Shown here: one piece after another, positions 16,911 through 57,308 of the stretch
Layout of the letters: each line of letters opens with the position of its first letter
How positions within the stretch are numbered: position 1 is the stretch's first letter
Assembly (NCBI RefSeq): GCF_009905215.1
Contig: NZ_CP047593.1
Span: 1,368,900 to 1,432,899 of the forward strand
Direction: 5' to 3'
Length of the DNA: 64,000 bases
DNA from: Tichowtungia aerotolerans
GTDB lineage: Bacteria; Verrucomicrobiota; Kiritimatiellia; Kiritimatiellales; Tichowtungiaceae
The notes under the pieces: generated by a model
The model's database searches: none
What the model was told of the DNA's origin: nothing
The model's input: the letters and a program-made list of their open reading frames with translations, nothing else
Made by a program: the position numbers and the translations under genes

Positions 16911-16943
16911 AATTATTTTTATTTTGTGAGTTCGGAATTTACG

Positions 16944-18332
16944 ATGACTGATGAACAGAAAAAGCTTTGGAACGATGCCTGCCAACACCTGAAACAGACT
17001 CTTTCCAAAGATGTTTTTGAAAAATGGATTGCTGTAATCCAGTGCCGGAAGATTGATCACGATCAGGTTATTCTGGTGGTGGGCAATGATTTCTATCAGT
17101 CATGGCTGGAAGAGCATTATCTGCCGCTCATCAAAAATGCACTGGCTCTGGTTTCCGGGCAGACCTATGACATTCAGCTGGTTGTGGACTACAGCCTGGC
17201 TTCCGAACAGGAAGAACAGCCGGACACGGCAGAAAACGTTAAGGAAAAGGTTCGTTCCATTCTTCCGCAAAAACGCGGCACTAAGGAAACTAAAACCAAC
17301 CTGAACAGCAACTACACCTTTGATTCTTTTGTGGTCGGTCCATCCAACCAGTTTGCGCACGCGGCGGCCATGGCTTCGGCCCAGTCTCCTTCCCGCGCAT
17401 ACAACCCTCTCTTTATTTACGGGGGAGTCGGACTTGGAAAAACCCATTTGATGCAGGCAATCGGTAACTTCATCCTTTCTAAAAAAGGAAAAGGAAAAGT
17501 CTGCTACACAACCAGCGAAGCCTTTTTGAATGAATACATTGAAGCACTGCAGACCAATTCCCTGGCGAAATTCCGTAAAAAATACCGGACCGTTGATGCG
17601 CTGCTGATCGATGATATTCATTTTCTGGCCGGTAAAGAACGTCTGCAGGAAGAGTTTTTCCATACCTTTAACGCCATTTTTGAAAATCATAAGCAGATCG
17701 TCATGACTTCCGACCGGCCCGCCGGAGAGCTGGAAGGACTCGCTCCTCGACTCGTCTCCCGATTTGAGTGGGGACTGGTTGTTGAAATGGAAAGCCCGGA
17801 TGTTGAAACGCGGGTTGCCATTCTTCGTAAAAAGAGTGAGCAGCTCAAACTTTCCATCGAGCAGAATCTCCTTTTCTATATCGCAGAACGTATTTCCTCC
17901 AACATCCGTCGTCTGGAAGGTGCACTGATCCGGGTGGCGTCTTACATTTCCCTGACCGGACAATCCATGGATATGGGAAAACTGGAGTACCTTCTTAGAG
18001 ATACACTGGATCAGGAAAAGAAACACGCGATCAGCGTTGAAAACATTCAGAAGACTGTTGCTGAACACTTTGATTTGCGGGTTGGTGATCTGCTGGGACG
18101 CAAGCGAACCCAGAATATTGCCTGGCCGCGGCAGGTGGCTATGTACCTGTCCCGGGACATGACCAACCTTTCTTTCCCAAGCATTGGAGACTCTTTTGGA
18201 CGAAACCATGCCACTGTGGTTCATGCCTGCAAGACCGTGGAAAAGGAACAGACAACAGACCTGAAGCTGCGTCAAACGCTGTCTCTGCTGCGTCAGCGGG
18301 CAGGACATCAGTCCGCTCAAACGGTATCCTGA
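16944..18332 (+). CDS. dnaA: Chromosomal replication initiator DnaA
   Basis: AAA+ initiator that binds DnaA boxes and opens the origin. Counting from an alternative GTG at 16926, the domain I helix motif (KLWNDACQHL) is near residue 15, Walker A GGVGLGKTH at 166-173, Walker B LLIDDIHFLAGKE follows, and the C-terminal DNA-binding domain IV has the signature SFGRNHATVVHACKTVE. Full length is about 462 aa from the ATG at 16944, or 468 aa from the GTG. A hairpin terminator follows, then the probable oriC and dnaN. Confidence 0.96.
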   Translation: MTDEQKKLWNDACQHLKQTLSKDVFEKWIAVIQCRKIDHDQVILVVGNDFYQSWLEEHYLPLIKNALALVSGQTYDIQLVVDYSLASEQEEQPDTAENVKEKVRSILPQKRGTKETKTNLNSNYTFDSFVVGPSNQFAHAAAMASAQSPSRAYNPLFIYGGVGLGKTHLMQAIGNFILSKKGKGKVCYTTSEAFLNEYIEALQTNSLAKFRKKYRTVDALLIDDIHFLAGKERLQEEFFHTFNAIFENHKQIVMTSDRPAGELEGLAPRLVSRFEWGLVVEMESPDVETRVAILRKKSEQLKLSIEQNLLFYIAERISSNIRRLEGALIRVASYISLTGQSMDMGKLEYLLRDTLDQEKKHAISVENIQKTVAEHFDLRVGDLLGRKRTQNIAWPRQVAMYLSRDMTNLSFPSIGDSFGRNHATVVHACKTVEKEQTTDLKLRQTLSLLRQRAGHQSAQTVS

Positions 18333-18356
18333 CAGGATTCCATAGAACAGAATGCA

Positions 18357-18386
18357 AGAGGCAGGTCGTCAGACTGCCTCTTTTTC
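18357..18386 (+). terminator. Rho-independent terminator after dnaA
   Basis: Eight-bp stem AGAGGCAG/CTGCCTCT with a nine-base loop, followed by TTTTCTTT. Confidence 0.8.
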
Positions 18387-18439
18387 TTTGCCTGATGAAA
18401 ACAGGAAGCCACCAACAGGGGTGATGATAAGATGAGGGT

Positions 18440-18640
18440 AAATCTGTTGATAGACTGAGGATAAATTTGACAACTTTGACTTACTGAAAGTCGAGAGGGT
18501 TTATCCTGAGTTTCTCCACAGAACTGTCAACAAAGCTAAATACGCTGACTAGATAGAGATAGGTAAAAAAACAGGCTGACTGATCATTCTATTTACAGTA
18601 CTACTAATACTAAGATTTATATACTAAAGAAGGTTATCTA
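18440..18640 (+). other. Probable replication origin oriC with DnaA boxes and DnaA-trio
   Basis: The dnaA-dnaN gap holds a cluster of DnaA-box-like nonamers relative to TTATCCACA: CTATCAACA (minus, 18445-18453, 7/9), TTATCCTCA (minus, 18456-18464, 8/9), TTATCCTGA (18501-18509, 7/9), TTCTCCACA (18512-18520, 8/9) and a weak CTATTTACA (18589-18597). Directly after the last box is TACTACTAATACTAA (18599-18613), which on the complementary strand reads as 3'-GAT-type triplets, the DnaA-trio pattern of bacterial unwinding elements. It is followed by the AT-rich stretch GATTTATATACTAAAG. The order box, trio, AT-rich tract is the known basal origin layout. Confidence 0.75.
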
Positions 18641-18656
18641 TTACAGGGGGTTGTTA

Positions 18657-19751
18657 ATGAAGCTCACAATTGAAAAATCAGCACTGCTCGATGCTCTGCA
18701 AAAAGTTCAGTCCATCGTTGGTCAGCGCAGCACTCTTCCCATTCTTTCCAACGTTCTTTTAAGAGCGGAAGGAGATCTGGTGTCTTTAACAACGACCGAT
18801 ATGGAGGTTTGCGTTAAAACCAGCGTTGCGGCTGAGATCAGCGATGCAGGGGGCACAACACTGCCGGCTCGCCGTTTCTTCAGCATCTGCCGTGAGCTGC
18901 CGGCCGGACAGGTTGAAATCGAAGTGGACGCCAAGGACGTTGCCACGATCCGCAGCGGTCCGTCTTTCTTCAAGCTGGTCGGTCTTCCGGAAGAGGAGTT
19001 TCCGCCGCTTCCGGAATTCGACGAGAACTCTGTTTACTCTGTCGATCAGGTCGTCTTCCGGGAAATGCTTCAGAAAGTCACATACGCGGCCTCTACGGAC
19101 GAAACACGCTATATCCTGAACGGAGCCCTTCTCAGCTTTAAGGACGAGAAATTGACCGTTGTAGCAACCGATGGGCGTCGACTGGCGATGGTGGAGCAGG
19201 AAATCGAATTTTCTGAAGATGCCCAGGTCGATCTGGTTGTTCCCAGTAAAACCATTAATGAGCTGATCAAGACGCTGGGGGAAGAAGGAGTTCTTCGCAT
19301 CCGGGTGTCCGCAACGCAGGTTGCCTTTGATTTTGATCAGATTCTGGTGATTTCCAAGCTGATTGAAGGAACCTATCCAAACTTCCAGCAGGTGATTCCG
19401 TCGCAGTGCGAAGAGCGGGTGGCGATTGACCGCGAAACCATGCTGCTGGCTGTTCGCCGTGTTTCATTGCTGACTGACGATCAAACTGCTTCAGTCAAAC
19501 TGAACTTCGGCAGCAACAAGCTGGAACTGGTGACCAACAACACGGAAATCGGAGAGGCCCGGGAAACCATTCCGGTCAAATACGAAGGAAAGGAACTTTC
19601 GATTGCCTTTAATCCGGGATTCCTGATGGCGCCGCTGCGTCATCTCGATTCCGATGAGATTTTCTTTGAGCTGTCGGACGAATTAAGTCCTGGAGTGATC
19701 AAAACCAACGTTCCATTCCTGTATGTTTTGATGCCCATTCGGGTTTCATAA
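18657..19751 (+). CDS. dnaN: DNA polymerase III beta sliding clamp DnaN
   Basis: The processivity clamp of DNA polymerase III, about 364 aa in three similar domains. It begins MKLTIEKSALLDALQKVQSIVGQRSTLPILSN and ends in the family-typical VPFLYVLMPIRVS. The ATG at 18657 is preceded at proper distance by AGGGGG, which favours it over the TTG at 18651. dnaA lies upstream across the origin. No recF or gyrB follows: the next items are tRNA-Gln and unrelated genes, so the classical dnaA-dnaN-recF-gyrB order is broken here. Confidence 0.96.
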   Translation: MKLTIEKSALLDALQKVQSIVGQRSTLPILSNVLLRAEGDLVSLTTTDMEVCVKTSVAAEISDAGGTTLPARRFFSICRELPAGQVEIEVDAKDVATIRSGPSFFKLVGLPEEEFPPLPEFDENSVYSVDQVVFREMLQKVTYAASTDETRYILNGALLSFKDEKLTVVATDGRRLAMVEQEIEFSEDAQVDLVVPSKTINELIKTLGEEGVLRIRVSATQVAFDFDQILVISKLIEGTYPNFQQVIPSQCEERVAIDRETMLLAVRRVSLLTDDQTASVKLNFGSNKLELVTNNTEIGEARETIPVKYEGKELSIAFNPGFLMAPLRHLDSDEIFFELSDELSPGVIKTNVPFLYVLMPIRVS

Positions 19752-22479: not shown

Positions 22480-22940
22480 GCTGCCTGTCCGGCAAAGCTT
22501 TAGCGAAGGTCGAAGTCTGCAAACCGGAAACTTGATTGGAATTGTTTCCGGCAACGTCTCAAAGTTTGCCAAATAAGCTCTGCCTTCTCGGTGCCTTGAA
22601 TGAGCAACGCGAACGGGCGAAAGAATATTACTCAGATTAATTTGGTATTAAACAGATTTTCCCCTATCTGTGTTATCCGCGCGATTTTCGGTTAGAGCTA
22701 GGTTCACGCGGGTGCTTTTTGAAGCCGTAAACTTGAGAAGGCGCCGAATCCACCCGCAGTAAACCTGCTCTGTGCGGTAGGTGTAATGGTAATAACGCAG
22801 AACCTCCTGGACCTTTTATTCACCAGCTTACTATCGGGATTTGTCTGAAATTTTGGATTATTTTTCACTTTTTCCCTCCCTGTGTCGTCATGTATAAAAT
22901 ATACATTGATATTAAAAGAAAGAGGCGGTGTTTAAAAAAG
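22480..22940. other. Gene-free stretch
   Basis: No convincing coding sequence or RNA gene is visible. The stretch follows the dehydrogenase gene and leads into the repeat-rich and cassette-like region. Confidence 0.4.
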
Positions 22941-23095
22941 TTTTCCATGTTTTCCCCCTTAATATGAGCATAGATGGAAAATTTCAGGGGTAGAGGTCAT
23001 ATGTGGAAAATAAAACCGCCGATTTTCCATTTTTACCCCTTTAATATAAACATAGATGGAAAATCTTTCCATTCCATAGGGGTGATATATGGAAA
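22941..23095. repeat. Two tandem copies of a TTTTCCAT...ATGGAAAA element
   Basis: Copy 1 spans 22941-23010 and copy 2 spans 23023-23095. Each reads TTTTCCAT, a C-rich run, TTAATAT, then CATAGATGGAAAAT, and ends with AGGGG, an AT step and ATATG(T)GGAAA. Each copy therefore contains two nested inverted pairs (TTTTCCAT/ATGGAAAA and CCCC/GGGG). The order is conserved but the spacers differ, which suggests folding RNA or a multi-site protein target. Confidence 0.65.
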
Positions 23096-23202
23096 CTTTT
23101 CCATCTAACCAACTGTTAGAAGGACCGACGGGGTTAAACCTCTGGTGGGGAACCAGTAATGATTGTTAAGGGGCGCACAAGTTGAGTAAAAGTTGTTTGA
23201 GT

Positions 23203-23263
23203 GGTAATCTTAAAATCCCGGCGGCATAACGGAGTTGATGGCGACCGGGATTTTAAGATTACC
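23203..23263. repeat. Perfect 19-bp inverted repeat
   Basis: GGTAATCTTAAAATCCCGG (23203-23221) and its exact complement (23245-23263) flank a 23-base centre. No U-run follows, so it is not a standard terminator. It precedes the first attC-like site. Confidence 0.8.
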
Positions 23264-23388
23264 GCAACGTTGAAAGGTACTAATTGAATTTTTTTGTGCG
23301 GGGCGACTGGAACAGCGTCACGTAGAAACTGTGCGATGCGGGGAAGCACACAATGGAGTCGAACTTGAAGCGCCCCCGTCGCTCCAAG

Positions 23389-23478
23389 TTCTAACAATGG
23401 CATGCAGCTGACCGGGTTGACATTGGATTGATTCAGGCGAAGCTGGCCGCCCGGCAGCTGATGCCTGTTACGTTGGGA
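23389..23478 (+). repeat. attC-like recombination site 1
   Basis: Starts TTCTAAC and ends GTTGGGA, matching the R''/R' pattern of integron attC sites. The arms TAACA-AT-GGCAT-G-CAGCTG-A-CCGGG and CCCGG-CAGCTG-ATGCC-TGTTA pair throughout except for extra bases on one arm, which is the extrahelical-base architecture of attC. The next gene starts 7 bp after the site, as in gene cassettes. Confidence 0.65.
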
Positions 23479-23485
23479 ACAGAAA

Positions 23486-23920
23486 ATGAAACACATAATC
23501 ATAGCGACAATTTTAGCTGTCTCAGGATGCACGCACGGTTCTGCCGAGAACATCTATAAGGACAAGTTTATAACAAAACCTGTTCGGATTATGGTTGAGG
23601 CGTTCCTGAATAATGACTTGTCAGCGTATCGTAATTCCATGGAGCCGCAGTACTTCGAGAGACGAAGTCAAAGCGATGTGAATATTGAGCTGGATGCAGG
23701 AGTACAAACATTTGACCAATGGTTTAAAGGTGCAAAGGTCAGCGATTTTATTTTTACTGTAGAGGATGTCAGGCTTCCTGCTAAACTGAAGCCAAGCTAT
23801 AAAGAGGTTTCATATGGGTTACGTGGCAAAGAAGCCAGACTTCGCTTGTTAGTTCATTTGGAGAACAATGAATGGAAAATAGCGGACCCTACGCATCCCC
23901 ACGAAGCTTACGAAAAATAA
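23486..23920 (+). CDS. Cassette-borne secreted protein, unknown function
   Basis: A 144-aa protein with a short signal peptide (MKHIIIATILAVSGCTHGSA, possibly a lipoprotein with cysteine 15). The body contains VRIMVEAFLNNDLSAYRNSM and ends VHLENNEWKIADPTHPHEAY, which resembles small NTF2-like periplasmic domains, but I cannot assign it. It begins immediately after an attC-like site and ends 8 bp before the group II intron boundary, the layout of a single integron cassette. Confidence 0.7.
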   Translation: MKHIIIATILAVSGCTHGSAENIYKDKFITKPVRIMVEAFLNNDLSAYRNSMEPQYFERRSQSDVNIELDAGVQTFDQWFKGAKVSDFIFTVEDVRLPAKLKPSYKEVSYGLRGKEARLRLLVHLENNEWKIADPTHPHEAYEK

Positions 23921-23965
23921 ATCCCCAAATCGGGTAAAGGGGAGTGTCTAGCTCCCCCTCCCCAC

Positions 23966-23997
23966 ACCACCGGACATGCGGGTCCGCATCCGGCGGT
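23966..23997 (-). ncRNA. Group II intron domain V
   Basis: On the minus strand, ACCGCCGGA pairs with TCCGGTGGT around an inner GCGGACCCGC hairpin, followed by the G-rich domain VI. The triad CGC in the stem, instead of AGC, is the mark of class C introns. Confidence 0.72.
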
Positions 23998-24074
23998 TCG
24001 AAAGGCATCGGCCGACTCTATTGAGCCGGATAATGTATCCGAGACCATTGTTCGTGAACCGCTCCCTTCGGTCA

Positions 24075-25706
24075 CTATTTCCTTCGGAAATTATCTTCGC
24101 TGCGCTTCGGGAGACTGATTAACCCTTGCTCGGCAAGCCAGTCGTTTCCCATACCCATATTGGTTGCCAGCGTGCGTGCCAGCTTCCAATACGCCTTGCG
24201 GCTGCTAACGACCATTTTGATCTGCCGAATATTAACGTTCAGCTTGAGCAGTTCGCGGAACCGCTTTGCAGGTCGCTTCCACATCTTCCAGTAGCACATC
24301 CGCACGCGGCGGCGTATCCATTGGTCGAGCAGTGGAATGGGTTGGTAGTATTCGCTGATACCGAAGTATCCGATCCAGCCGCGCATATACTGCCGCAGTT
24401 TCTTCAGTCGGTACGCCATCGAAACACCCCAGCTTCGGCCGGTGAGTTCCTTGATGCGCCGCTTGAACTCCTTTTCGGACTTTTGGCTCCATCGAATCCG
24501 TCCATGTTTGATCTGGAACCCGAGGAATGTGCATTCGTCCAGAGACGCGACTTTGCTTTTGGTCTCATTGACCGTCAGCTTCAGCCTGCGTTCCAGAAAG
24601 TTCCGAACATTGAAAAACACCCGCTCGCCCGCGCGTTGCGATTTCACCAAGATGATGAAGTCGTCGGCGTAGCGCACGAATTTGTGTCCCCGCCGTTCGA
24701 GTTCCTGATCGAGCTCGTCGAGCAGGATGTTTGCTAAGAGCGGAGAAAGGGGGCCGCCCTGCGGCACGCCCTGACGTGTTGGCTCCCAACGCCCGTCATG
24801 CATCACCTCCGCCGTTAGATATTTCCTGATCAGTCTCAACACGCCCTTGTCCTTCACCCGCTTTTCCACGCAGTGCATCAGCACGTCGTGGTTGACGGTG
24901 TCGAAAAACTTCGAGAGGTCGGCATCGACCGCAACCCGGTGTCCTGAGCGGAACAGCTTCTTCACCTGCCGCACCGCGTCGTGCGCGGATCGTCCGGGCC
25001 GAAAGCCGTAGCTCGATTCCGAAAAGTGCGGATCGAAGATCGGGGTCAACACCTGCGCAATCGCCTGTTGGATCAGGCGGTCGAGCACCGTCGGAATTCC
25101 CAGCGGGCGGCGCGTGCCGTCCGGCTTGGGAATCAGCACACGGCGCACCGGGCGCGGGCAGTATCTCCCGTTTTCCAAGGTTGAGCGAATCGCTTCCCAG
25201 TTCCGGCGGATAAACCCGGCCGCGTCAGAAATAGACATGCCGTCCACGCCCGCCGCGCCCTTGTTTGCCTTCACCCGCGCCCATGCTCGCTGCATGTTCT
25301 CACTGCAAAGAATCTGCTCCAGTAGTTCATCTTGCGGGCTCGCTTCGTCCGCTGTGCCGGATGCATCTTCTCCGCCGGACGGCATCATCGAAGGTTCCAG
25401 ATCACAGCGGGGGCTTGCCCGCTCCTTTCGTTCCGGCCTTCCCGACAGGTCATCGGTACTATGCCGTCTGCTGACTCCTGCCGCATCATCGCCGCCATTA
25501 CTGACGCCGACGCTCTCCGTTGCCGAAGCGCATGTGCCGCAGGTCTCCCCGGATAAGAACGCAAACTTCAACTGCACAACCGCCGCATTTACCGTAGAGG
25601 CACTGCCCCGGACTTCGGTTTGCTGGGCAACCTCATCCGCCTCCTCAGCCTTATATGCGATTTCTGTTCGTCGGCTCACAGTCTTGAACTCCATCTTCCT
25701 CCCCAC
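24075..25706 (-). CDS. Group II intron reverse transcriptase/maturase
   Basis: A 543-aa LtrA-type protein. Reverse-transcriptase blocks are clear: VRRVLIPKPDGTRRPLGIP, SSYGFRPGRSAHDAV, VDADLSKFFDTVNHDVL, RQGVPQGGPLSPLLANI and the catalytic RYADDFIIL. The maturase (GIIM) domain follows with MRGWIGYFGISEYYQP. No HNH endonuclease domain is visible, as in class C introns. The first 110 residues are an unusual low-similarity extension (many S, A, E), so the true start may be further inside. It splices and mobilises its host intron. Confidence 0.9.
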   Translation of the reverse strand: MGRKMEFKTVSRRTEIAYKAEEADEVAQQTEVRGSASTVNAAVVQLKFAFLSGETCGTCASATESVGVSNGGDDAAGVSRRHSTDDLSGRPERKERASPRCDLEPSMMPSGGEDASGTADEASPQDELLEQILCSENMQRAWARVKANKGAAGVDGMSISDAAGFIRRNWEAIRSTLENGRYCPRPVRRVLIPKPDGTRRPLGIPTVLDRLIQQAIAQVLTPIFDPHFSESSYGFRPGRSAHDAVRQVKKLFRSGHRVAVDADLSKFFDTVNHDVLMHCVEKRVKDKGVLRLIRKYLTAEVMHDGRWEPTRQGVPQGGPLSPLLANILLDELDQELERRGHKFVRYADDFIILVKSQRAGERVFFNVRNFLERRLKLTVNETKSKVASLDECTFLGFQIKHGRIRWSQKSEKEFKRRIKELTGRSWGVSMAYRLKKLRQYMRGWIGYFGISEYYQPIPLLDQWIRRRVRMCYWKMWKRPAKRFRELLKLNVNIRQIKMVVSSRKAYWKLARTLATNMGMGNDWLAEQGLISLPKRSEDNFRRK

Positions 25707-25843
25707 GACTCCTCACGAAGCCGCAGTTGATTTCGTCTAGCGCTTCAGCTATCGTCAAACTCCGTGAAAGAGATTAACAACAGCCGGGCTACGCGCAGGG
25801 GACTCGAACCCCGTCAGTCTACGCTCATGCCAGGCGTACCCAC

Positions 25844-25902
25844 TGCATTCACTCTATCGCAGGCTCCGCCCGCTCAGAGTGACGCGAAGCGTTACGCTGG
25901 GG
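25844..25902 (+). repeat. attC-like site 2 (right part, split by the intron)
   Basis: TGCATTCACTCT-ATCG and AGAGTGACGCGAAGC-GTTACGCTGGGG flank a GGCTCCGCCCGCTC centre; CACTCT pairs with AGAGTG. With the CCCCAA left at 23923-23928 the outer stem CCCCA/TGGGG is restored. The following gene starts 12 bp after the site. Confidence 0.6.
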
Positions 25903-25914
25903 TCAGCAAGAAAT

Positions 25915-26532
25915 ATGAGAATTGTTTTATTAGTGATAATCGCTCTGTTTAATTCAGGTTGCGCATCAATGATCGTGCATGAATATGGTCGTCAGATTGA
26001 ATTTAAGCGTGCATCTGGGATTGTCTGCTGGGAAAATGGAGACGTCGGCATCCAGGAACAAACAATAAACAGGTGCGATGGATTCATAACACGTGAGCCT
26101 AAAATCATTTCAACTCAGTACTGTTTATTAACAAAGAATGACCTCTCCATATTCAACAGAGAAACGAACAGCTCGGGACGTGTAATCATTTATTTATCAC
26201 CTGAGTTCTCAAAAAACTCTATTAACAACAATTCTGAGCGGGCAACGCAAACAGAACTAGCACTATCAAAAGACAGCTCACAAGAAGTAGCAGGAGTGAC
26301 GCTTGCAGAAAGAAACCTAACAAGACCTATACCATACCCCGACAAGAAATCAGATGTATCCATATCGTTCGAGAAAGCCAGAAGATACGGCAGAGTAAAA
26401 AAAAGAAGTATTGCCGGGAAAATTCAACATCCTATTTTATTTCTACCTGCTCTTGTTACGGATGTTGTTTTGACACCTGTTTATATTATAGCCGTTCCAG
26501 TAACCATAATAACGCAAATGGGTGATGTGTAA
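25915..26532 (+). CDS. Cassette-borne lipoprotein, unknown function
   Basis: A 205-aa protein with lipoprotein signal MRIVLLVIIALFNSGCASM (lipobox cysteine 16). A hydrophobic C-terminal segment (FLPALVTDVVLTPVYIIAVPVTII) resembles small lipoproteins with a terminal membrane hairpin of the YceK type. No enzymatic motif is visible. Codon use and AT content are unlike the core genes, consistent with transfer. It is bracketed by two attC-like sites. An ORF start at 25879 lies inside the attC, so 25915 is preferred. Confidence 0.7.
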   Translation: MRIVLLVIIALFNSGCASMIVHEYGRQIEFKRASGIVCWENGDVGIQEQTINRCDGFITREPKIISTQYCLLTKNDLSIFNRETNSSGRVIIYLSPEFSKNSINNNSERATQTELALSKDSSQEVAGVTLAERNLTRPIPYPDKKSDVSISFEKARRYGRVKKRSIAGKIQHPILFLPALVTDVVLTPVYIIAVPVTIITQMGDV

Positions 26533-26538
26533 AAATCA

Positions 26539-26602
26539 CCCCAACCATCGGCTTCACTCTATCGCCGCCTCCGGCGGCTCAGAGAGAGCCGGGACGTTCA
26601 GC
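26539..26602 (+). repeat. attC-like site 3
   Basis: CCCCAAC at the left and GTTCAGC at the right (AAC/GTT complementary). Inside, CGGCTTCACTCT pairs with AGAGAGAGCCGG and a GCCGCC-TCC-GGCGGC terminal hairpin caps the structure. It starts 7 bp after one gene and ends 16 bp before the next, as attC does. Confidence 0.6.
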
Positions 26603-26618
26603 ACAGAAAGGGAATAAC

Positions 26619-27017
26619 ATGATCGTAAACACACTGTCAGCATGCATCGCCACAGAGAAAGTTGCCGAATCACGTGATTTCTACGTGAAACATTTCGATG
26701 CCAAAGTCACCTTTGACTGTGGGTGGTACGTCAATTTGCAGTTTGGGAAAGAAACCTCCGAGCTTCAGTTTATGGCGCCCCAGGATCCATCACCCCCAGC
26801 CTGCAATCCCGCCGGACTGATTTATAACTTCTCTGTTGATGATGTTGATGCTGAGTACCGGCGTTTGACAAAAGCTGGATTAATCCCGGTTATGCCACTT
26901 GAGGAGCATCCCTGGGGGGATCGTGGTTTTTCGATTCCCGATCCTAATGGGGTCTGCCTCTACATCTATTCCGACAGAGAACCATCCGAAGAATTTAAAC
27001 AGTACTGCAAAAACTAG
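26619..27017 (+). CDS. VOC-family protein (glyoxalase/bleomycin-resistance fold)
   Basis: A 132-aa vicinal-oxygen-chelate protein: ACIATEKVAESRDFYVKHFDAKVTF forms the first beta-alpha-beta unit, YNFSVDDVDAEYRRLTKAGL and DRGFSIPDPNGVCLYIYS the second. VOC proteins include antibiotic-binding proteins, glyoxalases and dioxygenases; the specific role cannot be told. Resistance-type VOC proteins are common integron cassettes. AAGGGAATAAC precedes the ATG and an attC-like site lies just upstream. Confidence 0.82.
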   Translation: MIVNTLSACIATEKVAESRDFYVKHFDAKVTFDCGWYVNLQFGKETSELQFMAPQDPSPPACNPAGLIYNFSVDDVDAEYRRLTKAGLIPVMPLEEHPWGDRGFSIPDPNGVCLYIYSDREPSEEFKQYCKN

Positions 27018-27113
27018 CCGAGCCAGCGCGTGAACCCTGGTCGGAAAGGTGCACCATCTTTTTATTTCCCGAGCGGGTAACACATAACTTTCTGCTGAGA
27101 AAAAGTATATTAA

Positions 27114-27185
27114 ATGGAAATAGTAGCACTGTTATTGGCCATTGTCGGATGGAGCGCCAGCCTGGTTGGAGGTATTTGGTTCTGA
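27114..27185 (+). CDS. Candidate 23-aa membrane microprotein
   Basis: ATG-initiated ORF encoding MEIVALLLAIVGWSASLVGG plus three more residues, a single hydrophobic helix with Glu2 and two tryptophans. It lies in the otherwise empty 223-bp gap between the VOC and nucleotidyltransferase-like genes. The ribosome-binding site is weak (GCTGAGAAAAAG), so expression is uncertain. Confidence 0.35.
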   Translation: MEIVALLLAIVGWSASLVGGIWF

Positions 27186-27240
27186 GTTGAAAGTTTTCGG
27201 AAAAGCATCTGGTGGGGACAGGGGTGCTTAAGGTCAGGAA

Positions 27241-27852
27241 ATGAAACAAAAGCATCAACAAATAATGTGCAATATATTTGATGCTGCAAAGCAAATGCAG
27301 GAAAAGGCATGGTCTGTCATTGAAGAAACCAGTGTGGTCAATCACTGGTCTTCAATTGGAGCGACGATTAATTTAGTGGGTTCTCTTAAGACCGGGTTGC
27401 TCATAAACAATCGGGATATTGATTTTCACATCTATACGAGTCCTTTCAAGCTTTCCGACAGCTTTCTCGCGATGTCTAAACTCGCAGAAAGCAAGCGAAT
27501 CAAATCTGTTAGCTACTCGAACCTGCTTGAATCCGAAGATAAGTGTATTGAGTGGCATGCAATATATGAAGATCAAGATGGAGATTCTTGGAAAATGGAT
27601 ATGATTCACATTTTAAACGAATCTCCCTTCGCCGGTTATTTTGAAAATGTGGCTGACCGCATTTTGAAGGTTCTGACTCCAGAAACGCGCAAGGCAATTC
27701 TCCGGATAAAAAATGCTGTTCCAGATGATCGAGAAGTGATGTCGATCCAGATATATAAAGCTGTAATTGAAGATGGTATTCGTGATTTAGATTCGTTTTG
27801 GCGGTGGGAAAAAAAGAATCCAAGTGAAGGTATTATCACATGGGTACCGTGA
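27241..27852 (+). CDS. Putative nucleotidyltransferase-fold protein
   Basis: A 203-aa protein. The segment NLVGSLKTGLLINNRDIDFHIYT matches the GS-x-(K/R)...DxDxx core of nucleotidyltransferase-fold enzymes, with GSLKTG near residue 50 and DIDFH near residue 60; a later WKMDMIHI could supply the third acidic residue. Aminoglycoside nucleotidyltransferases and many unknown relatives share this fold. I cannot define the substrate. It lies in the cassette-like region with an attC-like site 6 bp after its stop. Confidence 0.65.
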   Translation: MKQKHQQIMCNIFDAAKQMQEKAWSVIEETSVVNHWSSIGATINLVGSLKTGLLINNRDIDFHIYTSPFKLSDSFLAMSKLAESKRIKSVSYSNLLESEDKCIEWHAIYEDQDGDSWKMDMIHILNESPFAGYFENVADRILKVLTPETRKAILRIKNAVPDDREVMSIQIYKAVIEDGIRDLDSFWRWEKKNPSEGIITWVP

Positions 27853-27858
27853 AAAAAG

Positions 27859-27922
27859 GCTTAATCCGCGCGCATACGCTATCGAGGACTCCGCTCACTT
27901 AGAGTAACGTGAATCGTTGGCA
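27859..27922 (+). repeat. attC-like site 4 (degenerate)
   Basis: GCTTAAT at the left and GTTGGCA at the right, with arms CGCATACGCTA and TAGAGTAACGTG that pair imperfectly. The central TATCGAGGACTCCGCTCAC and AGAGTAACGTGAATCGTT resemble site 2 (TATCGCAGGCTCCGCCCGCTC, AGAGTGACGCGAAGCGTT). Confidence 0.5.
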
Positions 27923-28437: not shown

Positions 28438-28790
28438 TGGTGCTATCTGGCATCGAAAATATGGATCAAATAGAAAACATTTTAATCGGCAGTTTATTCC
28501 TGACAGTCTACGGCTGGCGGATTGCCAGACCGTATCTGTTTTACCGAGATGTTGTGTCTGGAGCCATAACCTGTGATGCCACCGGATATATCCTGACTCA
28601 GGGAGTCATCAGTGGTGGAGTTGCGATCTACTGGATCTCCCAAATCGGATTGATTTCAGTTGCAGACTGGCTGATCATGTTTGCCTTTTTATCGATGGCG
28701 GTCCTTTCATTTTACTTTGGTATCAAAGCTTGGTGGTGGAATAAAAATAAAATGAAAATCGAACCAGGCAATCGAGAGATACGGGCTTAA
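28437..28790 (+). CDS. Small integral membrane protein
   Basis: A 117-aa protein with three probable membrane helices (ILIGSLFLTVYGW, YILTQGVISGGVAIYWISQIG, WLIMFAFLSMAVLSFYF) and a basic C-terminal tail. Function unknown. The ATG overlaps the preceding stop, so it is coupled to the DUF523 gene; an internal ATG at 28461 is an alternative start. Confidence 0.6.
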   Translation: MVLSGIENMDQIENILIGSLFLTVYGWRIARPYLFYRDVVSGAITCDATGYILTQGVISGGVAIYWISQIGLISVADWLIMFAFLSMAVLSFYFGIKAWWWNKNKMKIEPGNREIRA

Positions 28791-28942
28791 GCGCAGCCAA
28801 ATAATTTCCGAAGGAAATAACGAAGAGGTTCAACCCCGGCGGAAAAATCAACCGGGAACTGCTCTTCAAAAAAAGGGGGCATCGAGTGCGGTAATCAAAC
28901 GGCGCTCATCATCGAAAAAAAGTCGGAACGTATCCGGTTTTC

Positions 28943-54975: not shown

Positions 54976-55384
54976 GGTTCTCTCCTTTTCTATGGTTTGT
55001 ACACAAACTGGAGGCCCACACCCAGGTCCGGACTGCTGTCACTCAGCCCGAAATACAGATAGGGAGAGAGGCTCCATTGATCGCCTGTTTTATGGTTGAG
55101 GTATGTGAATACCTCCAGTGGGTCATCAACGCCGTCGGTGGATGCCTGCTGGTAATCCAGTGAGGCGCCGATGTGGGTTGTGTCTGAACAACGCCAGTCG
55201 GCGCCGACGGACCAGTAAATCACATTGTTCAAATCATATCCGGAAGGATCGCCTTTGATCTTATAGCCGAGTGTAGCCATGGGGGTCAGCTTTCCTGCGG
55301 CATACATGTAATCGGCCTGCAGGGCATAATCGGTTTTGCCGGTGCCCAGTCCTTTGTTTTCGTCGGCGGTCGGGAATTTAATTT

Positions 55385-56701
55385 GGTTCATGACCCATTT
55401 CCGGGGAACGAGGAGTCATAACGGAATTTTTGGTATCTTGCTTTTGCGAGAAACAACTACCAAAAGGAGATTCCGTTATGACCGCTCAAAAGATACTCAA
55501 AATTCTCGGTGAATGGGAAGGGTTCCGTGTCGGCACAGTGGGGCCGGCCCCAGGGGATCCGTCCGAAGTGTGGATCGAGTTGACAGCAGAAAATGGCTCT
55601 GGCCGTTGCAGTGGTTGCGGGTCGCTATCTCACACGGTCCATGACTCAACCATCCGGTGGATACGTGAACTTCCGGTCTTCGGGAAGACAACATGGCTGA
55701 TGATTACACGACGGCGAATGCTTTGCCCCGCATGTGGCCCCAAGCTGGAAGCGCTCACTTGGCTGGACCCTTATTCGCGCTTTACCCGGCGCTTTGAAGA
55801 GTCCGTGGCTCGGTTATGCAAAGTCGCAACACACAAGCATGTTGCCGCTGAGTATGGGATTAACCGCAAGACGGTTAAAAATATTGAAAAGCGCTATCTG
55901 CAGCGTGAACTGGGGCCGATCAATCTCGCGGGAGTCGAGCTGTTGGCCATGGATGAGTTTGCGATCCAGAAAGGACATCGCTATGCCACGGTCATCGTCG
56001 ATCCGACCTGCAAGAGGGTGCTCTGGATCGGTCGGGGCCGTACTCGTGCAGCAATCCATCCATTCTTCAAGTTGCTTGGCGAAGACGGCTGCAAACAGAT
56101 CAAGGCCGTCGCCATGGACATGAACAGCTCGTATGAGCAGGAAGTTTGGGAGCACTGCCCGGACGCAGATATCGTCTATGACCTGTTCCATGTTGTCGCG
56201 AAGTATGGACGCGAGGTTATCGACCGGGTACGGGTGGATGAAGCCAACCGCCTACGCGATGACAAGCGCGCGCGCAGGGTCGTAAAAGGATCGCGCTGGT
56301 TACTGTTGCGCAATCGAGACAACATTACCAAGCCAAGTGATCAGGTACGTCTGGATGAATTACTGGAAGCCAATCGGAATCTGGCCACCGTATACGTGAT
56401 GAAGGCCGATCTGAAAGAGCTTTGGAGCTTTCGCGATACCCGGCAGGCGCAATCGTTCGGGGATCAGTGGTACGAACGGGCGGTTCAAAGCTCCATCGAG
56501 CCTCTCATAAAGTTCGCGAATCGTCTTGCCGGATACATCAAGGGAATCATCTCCCATGCCCGCTGGCCGTTGCACACCAGCCTGCTCGAAGGTATCAACA
56601 ACAAGATCAAAGTGCTCAAGCGAATGGCCTATGGCTACCGTGATGATGAGTTCTTCTTCTTAAAAATCAGGCAAGCCTTCCCCGGAAATGGGGCATGAAC
56701 C
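55385..56701 (+). mobile_element. ISL3-family insertion sequence with 8-bp target duplication
   Basis: Terminal inverted repeats GGTTCATGACCCATTTCC and GGTTCATGCCCCATTTCC (right, reversed) match at all but one position over 18 bases and continue to about 26. Both sides carry TTTAATTT (55377-55384 and 56702-56709), an 8-bp duplication as expected for ISL3. The identical copies show recent insertion. Confidence 0.9.
55478..56698 (+). CDS. ISL3-family transposase
   Basis: A 406-aa DDE transposase. N-terminal zinc-finger cysteines are CSGCGS and CPACGP; an HTH segment HVAAEYGINRKTVKN follows. Catalytic-core regions are LLAMDEFAIQKGHRYATVIVD, AVAMDMNSSYEQEVWEHCPDADIVYDLFH and LEGINNKIKVLKRMAYGYRD. 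AAAAGGAG precedes the ATG at 55478. The stop lies in the right terminal repeat. Confidence 0.92.
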   Translation: MTAQKILKILGEWEGFRVGTVGPAPGDPSEVWIELTAENGSGRCSGCGSLSHTVHDSTIRWIRELPVFGKTTWLMITRRRMLCPACGPKLEALTWLDPYSRFTRRFEESVARLCKVATHKHVAAEYGINRKTVKNIEKRYLQRELGPINLAGVELLAMDEFAIQKGHRYATVIVDPTCKRVLWIGRGRTRAAIHPFFKLLGEDGCKQIKAVAMDMNSSYEQEVWEHCPDADIVYDLFHVVAKYGREVIDRVRVDEANRLRDDKRARRVVKGSRWLLLRNRDNITKPSDQVRLDELLEANRNLATVYVMKADLKELWSFRDTRQAQSFGDQWYERAVQSSIEPLIKFANRLAGYIKGIISHARWPLHTSLLEGINNKIKVLKRMAYGYRDDEFFFLKIRQAFPGNGA

Positions 56702-57308
56702 TTTAATTTTTCCGGTAAGGTCTAAAAATCCGAATTCAGGCGGAATGGTATCCAGTTCGTAGGTTGCCGCCGCCCAGGTGTCCGCAATGCCGGACTCGGA
56801 CCGGTCTGTTCCGGTGCCCGGCAGGATAACGCCGTCATCGACCAGGTTTCCGGGACCATCGATTGCCAGCCAGCCGGTGATGATTTTACCGCTCCAGTTA
56901 TGATACGCATAACCGATACCGAACGGAACATAGAGCATTGCAGTATCGGAAACATCGCCGTAGTCGCCTGTGCTGTAGTCAATGCCGCTGATAAATTTCC
57001 ATTGGCCTGTTTCGGCGGAGAATGCACAGGAAGAAGCGTACGCCAGAACAAGGGTTGTTATCAGTCCGATTTTTCGGGTTGTTCTCAGGGAGTGCGTGAA
57101 TCGCCTCTGGCAAATCGTCTGCATAAAATCCTCCCCCGCTGCTTGGTGAATGAATGATCTCCCCCTCGACAGGAGGGAGATTACAAACCTGCTTTTATTT
57201 AATCAAGAGTGGTTTGGTCGGATTTCAGGCGACTAAAAGGATCACCTTATAAAGCAATGGGTGGATTTTCGCTCAGGGCCCAGTGGCAGAGCGTTGTTGA
57301 TCAATGGA

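Follow-up and report, generated by a model that had tools for sequence, protein, structure and literature searches.

An array of attC-like sites and small cassette genes with no integrase beside it may be a stray cluster of cassettes or the remains of an integron, and this was the question raised by the locus studied here. The window analysed was a 64-kb stretch of DNA from a Kiritimatiellota bacterium, which occupies positions 1,368,900-1,432,899 of a single 3.88 Mb contig. The original prediction described the locus as an array without an integrase, of the CALIN type. CALIN is the IntegronFinder term for a cluster of attC sites lacking an integrase, and such clusters have been proposed to be degraded integrons (PMC9024848). 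In the present study, sequence comparison established the attC family membership of the sites, the homology of an attI site, the borders of one cassette at three loci, an intI pseudogene and the position of an intron. We concluded that the locus is almost certainly a sedentary chromosomal integron that has decayed, and that its attI and attC sites may still be used in trans.

The attC sites and cassettes of the window

To search for attC sites, we trained a covariance model (R1) on seven 64-nt attC sites that lie outside the window, in two other arrays of the genome. The search of the 64-kb window returned exactly four matches, at the same places as the predicted sites, with E-values that are rough owing to a short calibration. 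The attC of cassette A (23389-23478, plus strand, 90 nt) scored 22.4 bits (E 0.0014 in 64 kb), the part of the attC of cassette B left after an intron (25840-25897, plus strand; match at 25834-25897) scored 47.2 bits (E 2.1e-10), the attC of cassette C (26539-26602, plus strand) scored 55.8 bits (E 9.1e-13), and the decayed attC of cassette D (27859-27922, plus strand) scored 28.4 bits (E 3.1e-5). Since a model trained outside the window matched exactly these four, all of the predicted sites were real, with three corrections. The site at 23389, with the lowest R1 score, belonged to another attC type of 90 nt; the site placed at 25844 had its true start at 25840, with its first R'' bases cut off by the intron; and the site at 27859 was decayed. 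Folding of the bottom strands, which had been proposed as a check, was significant against shuffles for attC A (z -3.3) and attC C (z -2.3) and weak for attC B, while attC D folded no better than shuffles.

Throughout the genome, R1 gave 23 matches at E<1 (22 of the 23 at E<0.002), with clusters at 0.54, 0.87, 1.036-1.058 and 1.39 Mb and single sites elsewhere. The absence of covariance-model hits had been named as grounds against the prediction; matches were found in both the window and the genome. The core words shared by the sites, from which one cassette system of a poorly sampled phylum had been proposed, indeed belong to a genome-wide 64-nt attC family. R1 also matched in 32 of the 40 genomes of a set of relatives that included the genome itself, indicating that the attC family belongs to the clade; an integron integrase was found in 21 of the same 40, and in a same-genus genome it was 75% identical to an intact one here. 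A second, small model (R2), built from class 1/mobile-integron and other bacterial attC sites, did not find the attC sites of the window and gave no attC match in the whole-genome search. On selected loci, it found only the 84-89 nt attC type, at four sites in other arrays of the genome.

All cassette borders in the window array were G^TT. According to the cassette rule, R'' is the reverse complement of the start of its own cassette, and intact class 1 cassettes passed this rule in the same test. The agreement was 7/7 for cassette A, 4/7 for C and 5/7 for D, and the R'' of attC B (TCCCCAA|C) was a near match to the expected TCCCAAC, with one inserted C. The status of attC A is proven by its 7/7 agreement together with the copies of cassette A elsewhere. 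As only cassette A followed the rule fully, the distal attC sites may be inactive, and the lower agreement of C and D and the unfolding attC D would be expected for an array without its own integrase. Genes started 13-29 nt past the G^TT crossover, that is, 7-23 nt past the end of R', in good agreement with the predicted spacing of 7-24 bp. A strict search for RYYYAAC/GTTRRRY pairs missed most sites here, because the last six bases of R' come from the next cassette.

Cassette B (23473-25891, plus strand), whose attC is interrupted by the intron, starts at G^TTGGGA and ends at G^TTACGC, and it carries a gene of 144 aa with a lipoprotein-like start (23486-23920, plus strand) and no family match. 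Cassette C (25892-26596, plus strand), bordered by G^TT, carries a gene of 205 aa, also with a lipoprotein-like start (25915-26532, plus strand). Cassette D (26597-27916, plus strand) contains two genes, one glyoxalase-like (26619-27017, plus strand; PF00903, 49.9 bits) and one nucleotidyltransferase-like, the latter with a weak match below the cut-off (27241-27852, plus strand; PF01909, 17.6 bits).

The broken integrase gene, the promoter region and attI

No intact intI adjoined the array within the 64-kb window, where only a frameshifted N-terminal remnant was found. This intI pseudogene (22717-22868, minus strand) has one frameshift, and the remainder of the gene is deleted. PF13495 was matched at 22717-22815 with 31 bits, above the cut-off. 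The remnant reads GTG-KNNPKFQTNPDSKLVNK, followed by the frameshift and VQEVLRYYHYTYRTEQVYCGWIRRLLKF, and ends after about 50 codons. The peptide KVQEVLRYYHYTYRTEQVYCGWIRRLLKF from the shifted frame showed 64-72% identity to the intact IntI of relatives (E down to 3e-12), and its best matches were in genomes of the same order (72% over 29 aa and 64% over 33 aa). The remnant was nearer to these proteins than to the intact IntI of either type in its own genome, so the window platform once had a third integrase type, which is now dead.

Upstream of the pseudogene lies an intI promoter/regulatory region (22869-23102) with repeated TGGAAAA/TTTTCCA motifs, which was 70-75% identical to the intI-attI interval of intact integrons in three relatives. 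The interval 22730-23103 aligned with the intI start, promoter region and attI of one intact integron (G024) at 70% identity over 386 bp (E 8e-38), and shorter parts of it aligned with two others (G036 and G031) at 73-75%. The attI core ATCTAAC-CAACT-G^TTAGAA (23103-23121, plus strand) was aligned to the attI of relatives. The homology stopped at AACTG^TT in the window and at CACTG^TT in the relatives, where the first cassette begins in each, which places the attI crossover at 23115^23116. These results indicated that an intI pseudogene, a promoter region and attI stand in the canonical place, and thus that the locus is an integron in decay, as opposed to a stray attC cluster. The predicted lack of an integrase therefore holds for a working intI but not for its remains.

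The original platform consisted of its own intI transcribed leftwards, a promoter/operator region, attI and a rightward cassette array; intI later suffered a frameshift and a truncation, so that attI and four or more cassettes (A-D) remain. Like the sedentary chromosomal integrons of Vibrio, Xanthomonas and environmental MAGs, the locus has an intI divergent from the array, an attI and tandem attC cassettes with head-to-tail genes of unknown function. Unlike them, its own intI is a pseudogene, its array is small with decaying attC sites, and three intact intI of two types are present elsewhere in the chromosome. The locus resembles a CALIN in having at least two attC sites and no working intI adjoining, whereas the recognisable integrase remnant, promoter region and attI make the route of degradation visible; a program that requires an intact integrase close by would probably list it among the CALINs. 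The locus is ordinary in kind, and its interest lies in the shared cassette and in the presence of several platforms in one genome.

As for the position of the locus, dnaA and dnaN were found at 16926-19751 and the GC skew changed sign near 16 kb, which places the array near the replication origin with the attC bottom strands on the leading-strand template. A separate segment at 55371-56704 (1,334 bp) was 99% identical to L018:14941-16274, an element repeated elsewhere in the genome.

Cassette A and the other platforms of the chromosome

Cassette A (23116-23472, plus strand) is 357 bp long, without an evident plus-strand gene, and has G^TT at both borders. One copy (G000:C1:1059290-1059646) was identical at 357/357 positions and is the first cassette beside the intact integrase IntI-327; another, at 957104-957460, was identical at 356/357 positions (one substitution) and lies inside another array. 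The flanks were unrelated among the three loci, with G^TT at every border, and reverse-complementing G plus the start of the cassette, TTAGAA, yields its R'' (TTCTAAC). The exact borders and unrelated flanks are strong sequence evidence that cassettes have moved between the integron platforms of this genome by IntI. A match of 369 bp linking the window to the 1.06 Mb locus, where it adjoins intI, was considered as a duplicated attI region. This reading was rejected, since the cassette rule, the attI of relatives and the presence of a third copy within another array identified it as a cassette. Cassette A contains a strong hairpin, an imperfect palindrome of 61 bp (23203-23263; RNA fold z -5.0), and is possibly a non-coding RNA or hairpin cassette. 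It was found in none of 57 other related genomes, and a sigma-70 promoter scan around it gave no more hits than in shuffles.

A search for intI elsewhere on the chromosome, which the original prediction had called for, revealed three intact integron integrases of two types as well as further attC arrays. IntI-327 (327 aa, 1.06 Mb) scored 441 bits with TIGR02249, and IntI-462, present as two near-identical copies of 459-462 aa at 0.54 and 2.64 Mb, scored 417 bits (cut-off 265 for both). The tyrosine-recombinase catalytic motifs were present in both types. In the 1.06 Mb array, the cassettes abut and obey the cassette rule, like class 1 arrays in the same test. More than one intI per genome is already known, in 22% of intI-bearing genomes (PMC9024848).

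Several further observations were made on these platforms. A 1,470-bp unit of attI and IntI-462 is duplicated with two mismatches at L019:5157-6626 (2.64 Mb) and L020:6339-7808 (0.54 Mb), in unrelated genome contexts; one end of the homology falls exactly on the attI crossover and the other a short way past the intI stop. Many integron integrases of the clade, including these two, have open frames of 405-480 aa, and in the two copies examined the usual integrase is preceded by an N-terminal extension of some 145 residues, in which no Pfam domain was found. At L114:5360-5701 (0.955 Mb), a 113-aa piece of this extension adjoins an intact-looking attI and an array, and this locus is a second decayed platform of the genome. 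C-terminal integron-integrase fragments were also found directly behind the intact IntI-327 (L017:14754-14906) and alone near a weak attC match (G000:C1:2892489-2892572).

Three other explanations of the locus were weighed against a decayed integron. If the array were a plain CALIN, its cassettes would have been dispersed or inserted off-target at a secondary site that never had an integrase. The lack of an intact intI in the window fits this explanation, as do the lone attC sites without an integrase at 12 kb and 2.77 Mb; however, it is contradicted by the intI pseudogene, promoter region and attI, which follow one another in the canonical order and orientation and share homology with intact platforms, and we consider it very improbable. 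The spread of cassette A by homologous recombination or gene conversion, and not by an integrase, would account for its near-identical copies, but the unrelated flanks leave no flanking homology to recombine and the borders fall exactly at G^TT at three loci, so that this too has very little likelihood. The suggestion that chance hairpins or terminators lie between the small genes and only look like attC sites has the least probability, practically none: although intergenic hairpins are common and the site at 27859 has no significant fold, the suggestion is refuted by the R1 matches, with E down to 9e-13 at four places only in 64 kb.

Under the preferred reading, a decayed integron, the cassettes would have entered, and perhaps still move, by IntI recombination between double-stranded attI and the folded bottom strand of attC, and the window attI would have either captured cassette A or passed it on. 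The intact IntI-327 (1.06 Mb) and IntI-462 (0.54 and 2.64 Mb) would have acted in trans on the window platform. Such use of the window attI is plausible because an unchanged cassette A stands next to a broken intI, yet the break in intI could be recent. It is conceivable, at slightly less than an even chance, that a non-cognate IntI of the chromosome still uses the orphan attI in trans and that the platforms share one cassette pool, including a non-coding hairpin cassette that is first in two of its three arrays.

A group II intron in attC B and the wider meaning of the locus

The array contains a group II intron, which was absent from the original prediction. The intron (about 23929-25839, minus strand, with Rfam group II domains; its exact end bases are inferred) is of the group IIC-attC type and has inserted into the bottom strand of the attC of cassette B. 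It encodes a reverse transcriptase/maturase of about 437 aa with YADD present (24075-25388, minus strand; TIGR04416, 427 bits; RVT_1 and GIIM), which was 47.5% and 45% identical to two integron-borne maturases in pairwise comparison. An intron from a class 1 integron has the same ends, GTACGCC...CCCGAT. Its site lies between AA and C of R'', equal to G|TT of the bottom strand, and joining its flanks restored a normal 64-nt attC. A second copy at L019 (2.64 Mb) is 5'-truncated and IS-interrupted, with its 3' end at the equivalent position of another attC.

Group IIC-attC introns have been reported to occupy R'' on the bottom strand of attC, with the consensus TTGT/T (PMC7923331). As in those introns, the one in the window lies at R'' of the bottom strand, antisense to the cassettes and beside the attC stem-loop. 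It differs in its junction, G|TT here and on the 3' side of the L019 copy, which is one base off TTGT/T, and in its Kiritimatiellota host. Judged from sequence, it would be a group IIC-attC intron or a close relative. Separately, a 31-bp inverted match (94%) was observed between 28789-28819, at the end of the array region, and 24076-24107 in the intron; pieces similar to it near other attC loci (L116 and L138) are perhaps intron remnants.

A search of a collection of open-access papers found none pairing Kiritimatiellota with attC, and the titles returned for 'Kiritimatiell' and 'integron' suggest community surveys or reviews. As the 64-nt family was missed by the small model R2, surveys with standard attC models may undercount integrons in such phyla. 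The present results document well-resolved chromosomal integrons in Kiritimatiellota. The genome is closed and combines three intact integrases with no fewer than two decayed platforms and a cassette present at three loci. It lends itself naturally to the questions of whether several attI sites are served by a single integrase and of how integrons die.
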